Under the pieces are notes generated by a model. That model was not told the DNA's origin and did no database searches. It was given only the letters and a program-made list of their open reading frames with translations. The position numbers were made by a program, and so were the translations under genes. Source: Coriobacteriaceae bacterium (GTDB lineage: Bacteria > Actinomycetota > Coriobacteriia > Coriobacteriales > Coriobacteriaceae). Taken from it: DNA of 64,000 bases. Location: NCBI GenBank assembly GCA_015062655.1, contig SUUG01000005.1, forward strand, positions 1 to 64,000. The letters are read 5' to 3'. Each line of letters begins with the position of its first letter. Positions within the stretch are counted from its first letter, which is position 1. Below are positions 8,900 to 16,962 of this stretch, in pieces.

Positions 8900-9895
8900 G
8901 CGGTAGTGTCGGGAAAGTTGGTGTAGTGGCTCGTTAGCCGAGAATCCGGCCAATGCCCCGAATCACCATCTCCCTGACATCCTATGCTGCCTCCAGCTTG
9001 TCCGCAAGCTCGAGGCTGGCGTCGATCGCCCCCTGCGCCACCAGCCGGAAGACGGCGGCCCGCCCTTCGGTGGGCGGCTCGCCGGCCGGCCCCTCCTCGC
9101 AGAGCTCCGCCATCGCCTTCTCGGAGAAGTGGCGGGAGGCCGACCGGGCATCGTCCTGATCGCACATGACGGCGCCGGCGAGGCGCTCCAGCGACGCGGC
9201 GGACGGGAACGCCTGCACCACGCGGCTCCTTCGCTTTATCTCCCTGTTCGCCCGCTCCTAGAGGTTGTTGGTCCGCAGGCGCTTCCAGTGGCTCGCCGGG
9301 AAGTCGAGGTGGGCGAGCGCGTCGGGCTCCGCCCCCTCGAGGATGCGCGCCCCCTCGGGGCAGCACCCCTCCAGCATGTCGGCGGCGATGTGGCAGGCCG
9401 CCCTCACGGCCCCCGCCCCCTTGAGCCGGGACACGGGCGCGACGATGCGGCGGACGCGCTTGGCGAGCCTCCTCGAGCCCGCCGCCCGCGCGCAGTCGCG
9501 CATCAGGTGCACGACGCAGCGCTGCCGGGCGGCCCCCTGGAACTCCTCCTCCACCGCCCGCCGGAGCCCCTCGTGGGCGTCGGAGGTGACGAGCCTGACG
9601 CCGCGGACGCCCCCGGCCCCGATTCCCCTGGGGAAGGCCGGCCACGAGCCGTGGCTCTCGGTGTCCACGACCCCGATTCCGAGGACGTGCCTCCAGCCGT
9701 CCGTGTCGCAGCCGATCGCGGTGGCGACGGCCGTCGAGGCGACGCGGCCCTCGCGCCTGCACTTGACGTACGTCGCGTCGATCCACAGGCAGGGCGGGCT
9801 CAAGGCGTTCGGCGGGGGCGGCGGGACCGTGCACGACGCCATCAGGGGCCGCAGGGAGCGGCTCGGGCCGGCCGCCTAGGCCCGTCCAAGAAAAC
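8900..9895 (-). pseudogene. IS256/mutator-family transposase remnant (N-terminus missing, in-frame TAG)
   Basis: [14 protein letters not shown]...[32 protein letters not shown]...[41 protein letters not shown] at 9258-9260. One end near 8903 reads gtgtcgggaaagttggtgtag. Confidence 0.85.
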
Positions 9896-9899
9896 GTCC

Positions 9900-10158
9900 G
9901 CATCCCCACTTCGCCGCCCACGATAACCGTGTTTGCAGTCACAAAGGTCTCGCAGGCGCAGCGGGCCTTGCCGATTCCGGGTGACATATCCGATGATGTG
10001 CCCCGTTCTTCGTTCTCGAGATTTATCTCATCGCTGAGTATGGCATCCAAGATGGCATCAGATATTTGATCGCATATTTTATCGGGATGACCTTCCGTAA
10101 CGCTTTCCGAAGTGAAAAGGTGTTCACAAGCTGAAATGGAATGGCGGATGTCAATCAT
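9900..10158 (-). pseudogene. metK: S-adenosylmethionine synthetase MetK, N-terminal fragment
   Basis: [29 protein letters not shown]...[21 protein letters not shown], then loses homology where it meets the IS256 remnant. Confidence 0.88.
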
Positions 10159-10258: not shown

Positions 10259-11173
10259 TCACTTTGGCGTTACATTGAGCACCATGTCGCACAGCGTGAC
10301 GCTGATAGACGCCATGGCAAAAAGAATGAAGAGAAGATTGGCGCAATAGTAAAGAAGCAAGATTCTTTCGACTCGTTGACCGGCGAGAGCCATCTTGAAA
10401 GCCCTTTTGGAGCGCTTCATTAAATTTGGGACAGAAAGGATATCGCAAAGAATGAAATAGCCGTCAAGCTTGAGAAAGGGCGTGAGGTTTCCCACAATGA
10501 AGGCTATGGAGACATAGTTTAATGGTAGATACAACTTACCGGAGGCCAGCTCTGCAATGCATAGGCAGAGCAATGTGACGCTGTTGAAATATGGGCCGGC
10601 GAGGGAGGTGGCAATTCGCTGCTTCGTGCTCGCCATGCAAATATCTGCGGTGTCCACAAAGAACATGGGAAGACCATAGTTAAGCTTGAGACCGCATCTG
10701 CCAACCGTTCTTCCTGCGCGCATGCATGCTAGCACATGCCCACTTTCATGGACAGTTATGCTGAAGACAATCCAAAGTGTCAAGAGAGCAGGGTTGGCAT
10801 CGGCAAGATTTACAGTCGATTGGCAGATGAAGCTGGCGGCAATGGCAGCGATGCAAGATGCAATCATCAACAAGGGAGAGAAGAACCAGACGGGAGGCAT
10901 ACTCTTTAGTCGAGAAGAGGGGTCAAAGGAGAAGATTCTGCGCATGTACCAGCGATCCTCGGCGACACATGGACGTTCGTTGTTGAAGCATCTTTCGCTA
11001 AAACGCAATAAACCACTTGAGGGCAACTGCATCAGCGCCTGCAAATGTGACCCACGAACTAGCTTGTATCGTGTTGGATTTAATTGCTTGATTATTGCAT
11101 AGGAGCACCCTTCGAAGTGGATTTCATACTGTTCACTCCCCTTCGATTGAACGAAGATATTTTGCATAGACAT
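10259..11173 (-). CDS. M50-type membrane zinc metalloprotease (YydH-like RiPP protease)
   Basis: Multiple TM segments, HESGH (HExxH) and TPFLKLDGYFIL (LDG motif); next to the radical SAM and ABC genes. Confidence 0.82.
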   Translation of the reverse strand: MSMQNIFVQSKGSEQYEIHFEGCSYAIIKQLNPTRYKLVRGSHLQALMQLPSSGLLRFSERCFNNERPCVAEDRWYMRRIFSFDPSSRLKSMPPVWFFSPLLMIASCIAAIAASFICQSTVNLADANPALLTLWIVFSITVHESGHVLACMRAGRTVGRCGLKLNYGLPMFFVDTADICMASTKQRIATSLAGPYFNSVTLLCLCIAELASGKLYLPLNYVSIAFIVGNLTPFLKLDGYFILCDILSVPNLMKRSKRAFKMALAGQRVERILLLYYCANLLFILFAMASISVTLCDMVLNVTPK

Positions 11174-12131
11174 CTCGACGATAGCTTTCTAGGTAGGGTT
11201 CGAGCTTTTTAATGAACTCGGTGTCGGAAAAGACTCGATAGCACAGGTCGCAGATTCCGATGTAGCTTTCTGATTCAAAGTCTCGGTGCCCAATTTGCTT
11301 GGCAAGTTTGACGAAATGACCGATGCCGTGCTTCGCGGCAATTCTTACAAGCATGTTTGAATGGTACCTTTTGCAGAGGTCCCCAATTTCATCTTGGAAT
11401 ACGTTTCCAAGGCGGAACGCTTCGATGCGTCCCATTTGAGAGCAACAAGGATAGGCTTCACCGTCCGGATATATAGCGATCATACTAAGATCGCTACAAT
11501 GACCATTTTTCTTTGCAATGGTTGAATCATAGATGTAATCGGATGGTTCAATATATTTAGCTGCGGAGCCGACCGGAAGACACGGAGCAACGATGTGGCG
11601 AACACCTATGAGTAATTCTCCCAGCTCGCTAAACATATCCCCAAGGTCGCATTCGGAATGCGTGATAATGCTGCCGATATCACAGGGCAAATCACGCTTC
11701 TTTGCGGCTCGAAGAACGTTCGCAACATTCTTTACAGGGATATATTCTCCATGGAATCTATCGGCGCTGATGCTTAGCCTTGTGAGCCCGGCATCGCAGA
11801 GCTCCGATACGATTCGCTCGGCGTCGGCTGGGGTTTTCGCCCAAAAGCAATTTGTCGTGCAGCTCGACTCGAATTCAAAGTCATGTGCCATGCCAACAAA
11901 CTACAAGAGATCCTGATAGCGCAAGAAAGGTTCTCCACCTGAAAAAGCGATGGTTTTCAAGCTAGCGTATCCATTGGAACGATGGGTGGCGGCCTCCTTT
12001 ATAACACGTTCCACGACGCTTGCCGGTATTTGTTCCTTTCTGGCGGGCCCGCACTCAAAGCAGCACATTCGGCATTGGGCGTTGCATTGAAACGTTAAAA
12101 TAATCCCAATCGTCCGGACCTGAGCTTTCAT
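11133..12131 (-). pseudogene. Radical SAM RiPP-modifying enzyme (YydG-like epimerase candidate) interrupted by one in-frame TAG at 11901-11903
   Basis: N-part TIGIILTFQCNAQCRMCCFEC (CxxxCxxC) ...AFSGGEPFLRYQDLL*, continuing in the same frame FVGMAHDFEFESSCTTNCFWAKT... with C-terminal CC...CDLC cysteines. ORFs 11901..12131 and 11133..11891 are in phase. Confidence 0.85.
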
Positions 12132-12134
12132 GTC

Positions 12135-12926
12135 TTACCTCCCTTGAGTTGAAGGCGAGCCCCAATATCGGTTGTTTTTCGCCAGGCGCCTTACTCCTAG
12201 CGCTGCGGTTCCCACAGCGATTAGCAGCCATATAAGGGATAGTGAGAGGGCGATAAAAGGTCCGTGCAATGAGAAGTCAAGGGAAAGCGAGGCAATCTGC
12301 GGGCTGATTCCGTCATAACCTAGGAGATAACCCATCATGAATGTCGAGAAGCTGCTGGTATCGGTCTGGAACGTCAGTCCGTAGAAGTTGTAATTAATCG
12401 AACTTCCAATTACAAACAGGATGAAGAGGGCAAGAACGGAAAACATGGGGTTGCGAAGAAAGACCGATACGGCGCAGGAGAGCGCGAGGACGAACGCAAC
12501 GGCAAGAAGCGAGTAGGATACTGCATAGACATTGGCATGAATATTGGAGCTGTCGTTGGCGATGATGACGACAGCGAAAACAACCAACACGCCAACCCAG
12601 GAGCATATTAGCAAGACCGTCGCTCGCGATATCATTGCACGAACTGGAGAGACACCAATCTGTGGATAGAAGTCATACGAACCATTTTGAAAATCACGTG
12701 AGAAGGCATAGGAGTATACAGATCCTAGAGAAATCACGCTGAATTGAGCGAAAGAGTTGAACACTGATATGATTGCCGCATCACCTTGCTCGAGACGGTA
12801 TGCCTGCATGAGCGATGGTGCGAAAAAGAAGGTCGTGCCGACGAACAATGTAAAGATTGCAAGAAGGGCGAAAAGGAGATTGCCCCGCTTTGCTCGCGAA
12901 AATTCAAAGCGAAGAAGCCGATTCAT
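12135..12926 (-). CDS. ABC transporter permease (YydJ-like)
   Basis: About six hydrophobic segments, ABC-2-like; overlaps the adjacent ATPase gene by about 23 nt. Confidence 0.75.
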   Translation of the reverse strand: MNRLLRFEFSRAKRGNLLFALLAIFTLFVGTTFFFAPSLMQAYRLEQGDAAIISVFNSFAQFSVISLGSVYSYAFSRDFQNGSYDFYPQIGVSPVRAMISRATVLLICSWVGVLVVFAVVIIANDSSNIHANVYAVSYSLLAVAFVLALSCAVSVFLRNPMFSVLALFILFVIGSSINYNFYGLTFQTDTSSFSTFMMGYLLGYDGISPQIASLSLDFSLHGPFIALSLSLIWLLIAVGTAALGVRRLAKNNRYWGSPSTQGR

Positions 12927-13593
12927 GTGCGGTCTCCCTTTCGTTCGATTTGATTATCGACATCATGAACCGACGAAGTTTCTCAACGGTTCTACTTCCG
13001 TCATAGCGGATGAGTTGCGAGCTTGCGGCATCAAGGAAGAAAATCTCCCCCCCGAGATCGATTACATCTTCAAGATTGTGAGAGGTGTTGAAGACGGTGA
13101 TTCCTTGAAGTCTCCTTACGGCGTCAAGACATGTTTCTCGACTTCGGTAGTCAAGTCCGCTGAACGCTTCATCAAGAAGAAGGATTCGCTTGCCCGCCGC
13201 TAAAACAAGAGATATTTCTAAAAGACGCCGCTGCCCAGTACTTAAAGCGGAAACTTTGCTGTGGAGTAGTAAGGAAACAGAATCTGCGAGCACTGGAGAA
13301 CAATCGCATAAACGTTCAAAGCATTGCGGGCCAATGAGTTTGAGCAAATCGTTAACAGATACTTCGAGAGGCGGTTGAATCCTGTCAGATATCAACGAGC
13401 AACTGCTAGTGACGAGATGGGGGACTGAGCCTTTGAGAGGCGGAATTACTCCCGCAAGAGTTTTATAGAAAGTTGTTTTCCCGCAGCCATTGTCGCCAAC
13501 GATGTTGATGGTTGTTCCAAGGTCGAAATCAATCGCCAAACCAATCAGAAGGGGATCGTTTCTATTATAGCCGATGTCTAGACGCAACTGCAT
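12904..13593 (-). CDS. ABC transporter ATP-binding protein (YydI-like)
   Basis: INIVGDNGCGKTTFYKTL (Walker A), LSTGQRRLLEISLVLAAGKRILLLDEAFSGLD. Start placed at MQLRLDIG; the open frame extends to 13614. Confidence 0.85.
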   Translation of the reverse strand: MQLRLDIGYNRNDPLLIGLAIDFDLGTTINIVGDNGCGKTTFYKTLAGVIPPLKGSVPHLVTSSCSLISDRIQPPLEVSVNDLLKLIGPQCFERLCDCSPVLADSVSLLLHSKVSALSTGQRRLLEISLVLAAGKRILLLDEAFSGLDYRSRETCLDAVRRLQGITVFNTSHNLEDVIDLGGEIFFLDAASSQLIRYDGSRTVEKLRRFMMSIIKSNERETAHESASSL

Positions 13594-13827
13594 GACCGCT
13601 CTCCTCCGACGCAAGAAGGATAATTAGTTCAGTATAGCATATGTATATGGAAGAATAGTCTTTTTTGAGAAAAACAGTTGCTTTAGATTCACCAACATGG
13701 TATTTAGGAATCTAAATAGAAGTCTAGCTATCTCGCTTCGAAGATGGAGGCTCATGAAGGAGGTGAAAATACGGGTCGATATCATGAGAAACGGGGATAG
13801 ATTGGGAGAAGATGATTGGAGGACAAG

Positions 13828-13968
13828 ATGGAGAAGAACGAGAAGAAGATTATGAGCATCGATGAGCTGCTGGAAACTGACTTCGATTCTGAGGTTGAGG
13901 ATGTTGAAGGACACGAGAACCTCACTTGGATTCTCTGGGGTCCTCAGTGGATCATCGTGACTCCATAG
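13828..13968 (+). CDS. Candidate RiPP precursor peptide, 46 aa (MEKNEKKIMSIDELLETDFDSEVEDVEGHENLTWILWGPQWIIVTP)
   Basis: SD ggagg about 6 nt upstream (attGGAGGacaagATG); acidic leader, Trp/Ile-rich C-terminus; followed by a strong terminator; divergent from the ABC/radical SAM/M50 genes. Below the ORF-track length cutoff. Confidence 0.75.
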   Translation: MEKNEKKIMSIDELLETDFDSEVEDVEGHENLTWILWGPQWIIVTP

Positions 13969-13991
13969 TATCTTTGGCATCGTTGTGTTTG

Positions 13992-14035
13992 GGGCGGGGT
14001 CCCGATGATTTCATCGGGACCCCGCCCATCTTTTC
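13992..14035 (+). terminator. Rho-independent terminator after the precursor peptide
   Basis: gggcggggtcccgatga-tt-tcatcgggaccccgccc perfect inverted repeat, then atctttt. Confidence 0.85.
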
Positions 14036-14199
14036 AGGGTTTTGGCGTGCCCGGAGTGCGCAGCGCGCCGGGAAAGAGAACCGTCCGTCACTTGGGTGAT
14101 GGCTATTCGTTTTACAGGATCACCCTCCCGCTGGACACTTGCAATCGCTCCGGGTGCGAGGAATCCGAATGGAGGGGGTGGTGAGCGTGTGGATCAGAA

Positions 14200-14475
14200 G
14201 GTCTGCAGTCTGTCGTACACGAAGTGGATGTGCAGGCACCGCATTGTGTTCACGTCGAAGTATAGGCGCAGGGTGATAAACAGCCAGTCGGATTCAACCT
14301 TAGCGAGTTTTTCAGGAGGCCCTGCCGGTGCAAGGGAATCGAAATAATCAGGGGCGTCTGATGCTCGGCCATGTGCACGTGCCGTTCGCCATGCCATCGA
14401 AGCTCTTGGTGACGATCGCTGGGCGCATCAGGGAGCAGGAGAAGGCGAACATAGTTCAGTGTCAAGGAGCATGAG
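14200..14475 (+). pseudogene. IS200/IS605 TnpA (Y1 transposase) remnant
   Basis: SLSYTKWMCRHRIVFTSKYRRRVI...EIIRG.LMLGHVHVPFAMPSK: recognisable IS200 TnpA motifs, frameshifted and truncated. Confidence 0.8.
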
Positions 14476-15586: not shown

Positions 15587-16891
15587 CTAATCTTCTGACT
15601 CGCGATCTCGACGGGCCCTCCTAGCGAGTGCCAAGCTCGCCGCGGCCGCGCAGGCCGCGCCTGCGGCTGCCAGGGCGGCGATTCCGCTCTCGTCCCCGGT
15701 TTTGGGCAGAGCCTTGACCGAAGAGGCAGGACCGGACTTCTTGGAAGGATCCTGGCTCGCGCGGCCGCGCTGCCCGGAGTTGCCGCCGCCCTCCACGGAC
15801 CTGCGGGGAGGTTCCTTGCCGGCGCCGTCCTTGCCGTCCGGCTCAGCCGGGCCGGCAGGGGGCAGGGTCGCGGGGACCTGCTGCAGCCGGGTGTAGAAGT
15901 TCCTCACGACGTTCCCGGCCTTCACCTGCACCCTGGACCCGGAGTCGACGTAGGCTCCCATCGAGGCGGTCTCTCCGGCCGCGAAGCGGTAGCCCTGCGG
16001 CAGGGAGAACTCGAGGGTGTACTCGCCCTCGGGCACGTCCGCGAACTCGAAGGTGAAGCCGTTGGCGAGGATCCGGGAGGGCTCCACCCGGGCGCCGTCG
16101 GCCGAGACGAGGGCCGGCTTCATCTCGCCGAGCAGGGCGGCGTCGGGGTAGTCCCGCCCCCCGTCGACGAGCAGGTGCACGCTGAACTGCACGCGCTTGG
16201 CGGTCGCGGGCGCCGGGGCGTCCTCAACGAAGGTCCACGAGGCGTACGTGCCCAGGTTGCCCTTCATCACGCTGGTGTCGCCCATGGGCCATCCGTCGAA
16301 CACCCACTTGCCGCCGTCGACCTCGACCTCGGTCCTGGCGGGCTGGGGATGGTGGACGACGTCGCCGTCCTTCAGGCCCTCGATCGGGGCGGGGAGGAGG
16401 TCGAGCACTTCCTTGGGCAGCCTGTCATGGCCGGCGGCCCCGCTCTTCGTGGACGGAGAGAAGTGGTAGTCCGCGAAGAGCGGCTTGTACTGCTCCATCT
16501 TCCACGTGCCGACGAACCTCACGTCCGCACCGTCGACCGTCGCCTCGGCCTTGTCCCAGCCCTGGAAGCGCCAGACGCCGCCGTCTCCTCTCACCTCGGT
16601 GGCCGCCGGTGCGGGCGGGACCACCCTCGTGCCGTCCGCGACGTCGGCCTGCGCGGCGGGCAGCAGGTCCTTCACCTCCTGGTTCAGAGTGCGCCATGCC
16701 ACGCTGCTCTTGAACTCGTAGCTGACCGTGTAGGAGGCTTCCGCCGCGCCCGAGAGGGCGCCAGCCGCCTCGGCGGCCGGCGCCTCGGGAACGGTCGCCG
16801 GCGGCTCGTCAGCGAAAGCCGCCCCTCCGCCGAGGCACATGGCAGCGGCCAGGCAAAGGGCGATGGCCGGCGCTGCTTTTCTCTTTCTCAT
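15587..16891 (-). CDS. LPXTG cell-wall-anchored surface protein with SHIRT-like domains
   Basis: Signal peptide MRKRKAAPAIALCLAAAMCLGGGAAFA; two repeats of Y-F-S...LPxEVxxLLPA...GDxVxxPxPAxTEVxxxGGxWxFxGW; C-terminal LPKTGD, TM, RRARRDRE. Confidence 0.9.
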   Translation of the reverse strand: MRKRKAAPAIALCLAAAMCLGGGAAFADEPPATVPEAPAAEAAGALSGAAEASYTVSYEFKSSVAWRTLNQEVKDLLPAAQADVADGTRVVPPAPAATEVRGDGGVWRFQGWDKAEATVDGADVRFVGTWKMEQYKPLFADYHFSPSTKSGAAGHDRLPKEVLDLLPAPIEGLKDGDVVHHPQPARTEVEVDGGKWVFDGWPMGDTSVMKGNLGTYASWTFVEDAPAPATAKRVQFSVHLLVDGGRDYPDAALLGEMKPALVSADGARVEPSRILANGFTFEFADVPEGEYTLEFSLPQGYRFAAGETASMGAYVDSGSRVQVKAGNVVRNFYTRLQQVPATLPPAGPAEPDGKDGAGKEPPRRSVEGGGNSGQRGRASQDPSKKSGPASSVKALPKTGDESGIAALAAAGAACAAAASLALARRARRDRESED

Positions 16892-16962
16892 GATGCGTCC
16901 TGTCCTTTCCTTGTCCTCTCGTTCTTGCAAACCGCGCCAGAGCGGCGCGGAAGAAGGCGTTG

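Follow-up and report, generated by a model that had tools for sequence, protein, structure and literature searches.

A small Trp-rich peptide gene divergent from a YydG-like radical SAM operon in a Coriobacteriaceae genome: probably a distant version of the epipeptide system

Does the 46-codon open reading frame that faces away from a radical SAM operon in a Coriobacteriaceae genome encode a peptide and, if so, is this peptide the substrate of the operon enzymes? Both questions concern the window, the 64,000-nucleotide stretch of a gut Collinsella genome (contig SUUG01000005.1, positions 1 to 64,000) analysed here, for which a preliminary description had proposed a Trp-rich precursor with its own terminator, divergent from its operon. 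Our analysis identifies the frame as a previously unannotated, genuine RiPP precursor gene of a divergent epipeptide-like system. The full reading, in which the 46-aa product is the precursor of an epipeptide-like RiPP matured by the operon enzymes, we put at roughly two chances in three on the sequence comparisons given below.

The reading frame is conserved in a second genome

The precursor gene and its immediate surroundings comprise the following features:

13818..13822, plus strand: Shine-Dalgarno motif GGAGG, 5 nt upstream of the precursor ATG
13828..13968, plus strand: gene of the 46-aa precursor, which is free of Cys and has a net charge of -9
13918..13965, plus strand: conserved core NLTWILWGPQWIIVTP, aligned with its counterpart NLTWVLWGPQWVAVTS in genome G413
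13594..13827, no strand: intergenic region that separates the precursor from the operon; its G413 counterpart measures 103 bp
13624..13980, minus strand: antisense ORF of 118 aa, judged spurious; no family match, frame broken in G413
L047:4661-4819, minus strand (G413): homologue of the precursor, a 52-aa ORF with the sequence MDNDSTVQHTTDIVMSPEELLESSFDTDVSEIEERDNLTWVLWGPQWVAVTS

Translation of the gene gives MEKNEKKIMSIDELLETDFDSEVEDVEGHENLTWILWGPQWIIVTP, and reading frame, product and GGAGG motif are all as originally proposed; a TTG at 13816 provides an alternative start, from which the product would be 50 aa long. No strong sigma-70 consensus promoter was seen in the intergenic region 13594..13827. 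The core carries three Trp residues, a density that had been called unusual for a random frame. Consistently, three Trp within at most 11 residues occur in only 13 of 2629 random ORFs of 40-70 aa from shuffles of the surrounding 5 kb.

We searched the peptide against six whole genomes with related radical SAM genes, where it matches G413 only, at a single place (E = 1.8e-13). This genome, which is 83% complete, yielded the sole close homologue: there is no further close relative in an order-wide search (399 genomes) or in a phylum sample, and no relative in the plasmids, phages and viral contigs searched. Weak matches in other Collinsella genomes (E 0.02-0.1) were rejected as chance, as they lie out of frame within a conserved enzyme gene. 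The homologue in G413 is the decisive evidence that the 46-aa ORF is a real gene and not a chance frame.

Across the whole length, the plus frame is identical at 23 of 46 residues between the window and G413, and GGAGG precedes the ATG in both genes. The core, NLTW[IV]LWGPQW[IV][IA]VT, is conserved in the alignment, the leader less so; core identity is 12/16, the four differences being three replacements of Ile by Val or Ala and one of Pro by Ser. Nucleotide differences at codon positions 1/2/3 number 17/11/26. From these two sequences we estimate a dN of 0.44 and a dS of 1.35 for the whole precursor (dN/dS about 0.32), and a dN of 0.19 and a dS of 0.95 for the core.

These values bear on the possibility that the true gene here is the minus-strand ORF 13624-13980 and that the precursor frame arose opposite to it by chance. 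The minus-strand frame is the longer one (118 aa), yet it carries a stop in G413 and matches no family, and it is the plus frame that is conserved, with identical residues, a third-position excess and a Shine-Dalgarno motif in both genomes. All indicators thus favour the plus frame, although statistics from two sequences are modest, and we regard the antisense explanation as highly improbable. The antisense overlap described earlier stands, and the minus-strand ORF is judged spurious.

A candidate hairpin terminator adjoins an IS200 remnant

Downstream of the precursor lie two further features:

13992..14027, plus strand: intrinsic-terminator hairpin, followed by ATCTTTTCA
14037..14402, plus strand: degenerate IS200/IS605-family element that abuts the terminator, beginning just past the T-run

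The hairpin comprises 16 pairs, begins 23 nt past the precursor stop and folds stably (MFE -42.4, z = -5.4 for the folded stretch). The terminator proposed for the precursor therefore holds with respect to the hairpin, whereas the T-run is only moderate. We considered whether the hairpin is part of the IS200 element and ruled this out: in ten related IS copies a hairpin also precedes the element, but never the same one. Because these hairpins differ in sequence, the one in the window is best seen as host DNA, with the IS inserted on its 3' side, and it stays a good candidate for the terminator of the precursor.

As a separate observation, Collinsella IS200/IS605 elements lie directly 3' of strong terminator-like hairpins in 10/10 copies examined (L053-L060, L062 and L063, from other Collinsella genomes) as well as in the remnant at 14037-14402. 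The left end of the element (e.g. GGCTTTAGCC) is found on the 3' side of hairpins whose sequences vary among copies, which suggests that terminators may be preferred target sites of these elements.

The operon resembles epipeptide loci

From the precursor side, the minus strand carries four genes:

12904..13614, minus strand: ABC transporter ATPase, YydI-like; likely start at ATG 13593 with the Shine-Dalgarno motif GGAGGA
12135..12926, minus strand: ABC-2-type permease, YydJ-like role by position
11133..12131, minus strand: radical SAM/SPASM enzyme, YydG/EpeE-like, with a TAG at codon 77
10259..11173, minus strand: M50-type membrane metalloprotease with an HESGH motif, similar to YydH/LiaK and to daptide proteases

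In G413 these four genes recur in identical order, the radical SAM gene is intact, and the precursor is again divergent. Identities between the window and G413 are 38% for the ATPase, 28% for the permease, 42% for the radical SAM enzyme and 34% for the M50 protease, so that on sequence comparison each enzyme is homologous and the divergent architecture is conserved along with the core. G413, like the genomes G208 and G288 discussed below, belongs to a family, probably Atopobiaceae, that differs from the family of the window genome. That the layout is common to genomes of two families is our strongest reason to regard the peptide as the substrate of the operon enzymes. The expectation of a homologue beside a similar radical SAM gene was thus borne out, in the same divergent position, and together with the conservation of the plus frame this supports the earlier proposal of a precursor.

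Both halves of the interrupted radical SAM protein, as well as the G413 enzyme, have TIGR04078 (YydG epimerase) as their best family. Read through the TAG, the window protein matches this model at positions 2-308 with E 3.7e-52 (177 bits against a cut-off of 300), and its nearest solved structures are those of B. subtilis YydG/EpeE (8ai1-8ai6, E about 1e-33). The read-through protein contains CX3CX2C, and a PCC motif is conserved in the radical SAM proteins of the window, G413, G208, G288 and Macrococcus. The second Cys of this motif, Cys230 of the read-through protein, aligns with Cys248 of the PDB chain, which would correspond to EpeE Cys223 given a 25-residue tag, a length deduced from that of the chain. 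EpeE Cys223 is the proposed H-atom donor (PMC8326336).

The remaining enzymes are more weakly matched. The M50 protease scores 64.5 bits with the YydH/LiaK model NF058609 (E 1.1e-17, cut-off 225) and slightly higher, 71.9 bits, with the daptide protease model; the ATPase reaches 50.4 bits with the YydI model NF058610 (cut-off 240), and the permease has a weak ABC2 match only. Every enzyme score with an epipeptide model thus falls under the curated equivalog cut-off. The YydF model TIGR04077 leaves the precursor unmatched at E up to 10, while matching Macrococcus YydF at 2.8e-21. The Macrococcus record is the annotated YydF reference; a B. subtilis YydF sequence was compared as well, but none of our conclusions draws on it.

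Like the epipeptide locus yydFGHIJ/epeXEPAB of B. subtilis and other Firmicutes (models TIGR04077, TIGR04078, NF058609 and NF058610), the window locus combines a small Cys-free precursor with a YydG-like radical SAM enzyme bearing the PCC cysteine, an M50 protease and a two-gene ABC transporter. It differs in that its precursor is encoded opposite to the operon, has a terminator of its own and is acidic, whereas theirs is basic, and in the Trp-rich core NLTWxLWGPQWxxVT, unmatched by TIGR04077, next to enzymes scoring under the cut-offs. Gene order differs as well: ABC-ABC-rSAM-M50 in the window versus precursor-rSAM-M50-ABC-ABC in epipeptide loci, as in Macrococcus. Daptide clusters (NF041824) share the protease likeness, but in the window the protease is paired with a YydG-type radical SAM enzyme, and we saw no further daptide gene among the operon genes. 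Taken together, the locus is probably a distant actinobacterial, divergent version of the known epipeptide antimicrobial-peptide system, as judged by these comparisons. The preliminary description had not named this family and had noted neither the TAG that splits the radical SAM gene nor the IS200 remnant beside the terminator.

Relatives in other genomes

Two further precursors, both unannotated, accompany related enzymes:

L029:3812-3973, minus strand (G208, genus Olsenella): epipeptide-like precursor with the core SPVYLFQNVNATFIGW
L030:5783-5959, plus strand (MAG G288): epipeptide-like precursor with the core SPVYFIFNVNAAIIGL

G208 shares its genus with the Olsenella profusa genome G203, and the contig of G288 is also present as L034. 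Similar to the window, these clusters have the order ABC-ABC-rSAM-M50 and an acidic precursor. In contrast, their precursors are co-directional, directly upstream of the operon, and end in different cores; their radical SAM enzymes are 22-26% identical to that of the window. MAGs of Lachnospira and Oscillospiraceae also have homologous operons with a small co-directional precursor upstream, and these precursors match TIGR04077 weakly (2e-7 and 2e-6); the window, G208 and G288 peptides have no match to this model. The presence of such small precursors directly upstream of the same enzymes in Coriobacteriia and Firmicutes speaks for the epipeptide-like reading.

In a small tree, the window and G413 enzymes group together (83/86 support) beside the G208/G288 pair, while the deeper branching order is not secure owing to long branches. 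Only seven of the 399 genomes of the order that were searched hold a radical SAM enzyme of this range, so the epipeptide-like system is rare in the order. The radical SAM sequence alone gave no matches against the genome and viral contigs, and a profile of it found more distant clusters.

Another YydG-like radical SAM gene was noted at L046:8058-9038 in C. aerofaciens (NZ_OY725717.1; TIGR04078 E about 1e-24). Genes of this type occur in several Collinsella genomes; the annotated frame is without CX3CX2C, and the match begins 5' of the start as annotated. A second radical SAM gene, itself downstream of a gene for a PqqD-family protein, lies nearby.

Proposed maturation and alternative chemistries

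In the characterised EPE system, alpha-hydrogens are abstracted, a Cys re-donates hydrogen, the leader is removed, and a transporter provides export or protection (PMC7026026, PMC8326336); the modified residues of YydF are Val36 and Ile44 (PMC8326336). By analogy, the window peptide would begin with an acidic leader, about 30 residues long, followed by a hydrophobic, Cys-free core of about 13-17 residues rich in Trp, Ile and Val. The YydG/EpeE-like enzyme would take alpha-hydrogens from aliphatic residues beside Trp, and re-donation from the conserved Cys would leave D-residues. Residues 35 and 42 lie beside Trp and are kept as Ile/Val, and 43 and 44 are also aliphatic; candidate sites are Ile35, Ile42 or Ile43. 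The M50 membrane protease may then remove the leader, and the two-part ABC transporter may export the product or confer immunity. Like B. subtilis EPE, the mature peptide would attack competing Gram-positive bacteria at their membranes. The precursor is predicted to be transcribed alone, as a separate divergent unit that terminates in the hairpin, an arrangement that would let more precursor than enzyme be made.

Since radical SAM enzymes in this sequence range carry out varied chemistry, epimerisation is what we infer from the closest family. Thioether linkages of the sactipeptide/ranthipeptide kind and Lys-Trp linkages of the streptide type are disfavoured: neither precursor, from the window or G413, contains any Cys, and neither core, NLTWILWGPQWIIVTP or NLTWVLWGPQWVAVTS, has a Lys. 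A further alternative is a RiPP precursor in which the radical SAM enzyme installs a Trp cross-link of the cyclophane/triceptide kind, with no epimerisation. Three conserved Trp in an 8-residue stretch, compared with two in Macrococcus YydF, would suit such chemistry, as would an enzyme only about 24% identical to Macrococcus YydG; however, TIGR04078 is far ahead for both enzyme halves and for the G413 enzyme, cross-linking maturases score much lower, and the position of the proposed H-donor Cys is conserved. We consider this cross-link quite unlikely.

A short secreted-type precursor with a membrane protease and an ABC transporter might, instead of being antibacterial, serve as a signalling pheromone or elicit stress responses, as a sequence does not reveal activity. 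The nearest characterised relative, EPE, is an antimicrobial, membrane-active peptide (PMC7026026), and we hold the signalling role to be unlikely. It is also conceivable, albeit doubtful, that the window and G413 represent a separate actinobacterial RiPP class, defined by a YydG-related enzyme with a different or additional modification, the Trp-rich NLTWxLWGPQW core and a divergent, independently terminated precursor. The epipeptide-like reading remains our preferred one.

State of the locus in the window

Three features bear on whether the system is functional in this genome:

11901..11903, minus strand: in-frame TAG that splits the radical SAM gene at codon 77 (76 aa + 252 aa) and is its sole internal stop
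9898..10119, minus strand: truncated 5' fragment of metK (SAM synthetase), just beyond the protease gene
9258..9842, minus strand: IS256-family transposase fragment

The next ATG, four codons past the TAG, is without a clear Shine-Dalgarno motif, and initiation there would leave the protein without its SAM-cluster cysteines. We considered TAG as a sense codon; general readthrough is unlikely because the precursor gene itself terminates at TAG. Unless the TAG stems from faulty assembly, this copy of the operon therefore probably yields no modified peptide.

The cluster has a GC content of 48.0%, against 66-70% in the remaining window (48.6% against 62-65% in G413), and this low-GC island is flanked by IS200 and IS256 remnants. 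The contrast in GC and the remnants on both sides fit a horizontally acquired island in the early stages of decay, or a one-base sequencing error. The metK fragment is co-oriented with the operon and followed by the IS256 transposase fragment; it may once have been a SAM supplier or may be unrelated debris. Further along the window, the product of 15587-16930(-) has at its C-terminus an LPKTG motif, then a hydrophobic stretch and a basic tail, and is likely a sortase-anchored surface protein.

One reading of these data, compatible with an epipeptide-like peptide, is a decayed island in which the precursor is intact and the system dead in this lineage. Besides the TAG and the metK and IS remnants on two sides, it draws on the finding that no other Collinsella genome searched contains the peptide or any full-length YydG-like match comparable to that of the window. 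On the other hand, ATPase, permease, protease and precursor are all intact, and a single interruption in 332 radical SAM codons points to a recent loss or an assembly error. We give decay slightly less than an even chance, and it carries no weight against the G413 locus.

Discussion

A wide distribution of epipeptides among Firmicutes has been described (Popp 2021, as cited in PMC8326336), and our literature search found no paper linking them with Collinsella. A Trp-rich, acidic-led relative in a gut Actinobacterium, missed by all curated models, would widen the substrate range of YydG-like enzymes and offers a compact test case for how these enzymes choose residues. It further indicates that precursors may lie on the opposite strand, where mining rules confined to the direction of the operon would miss them.
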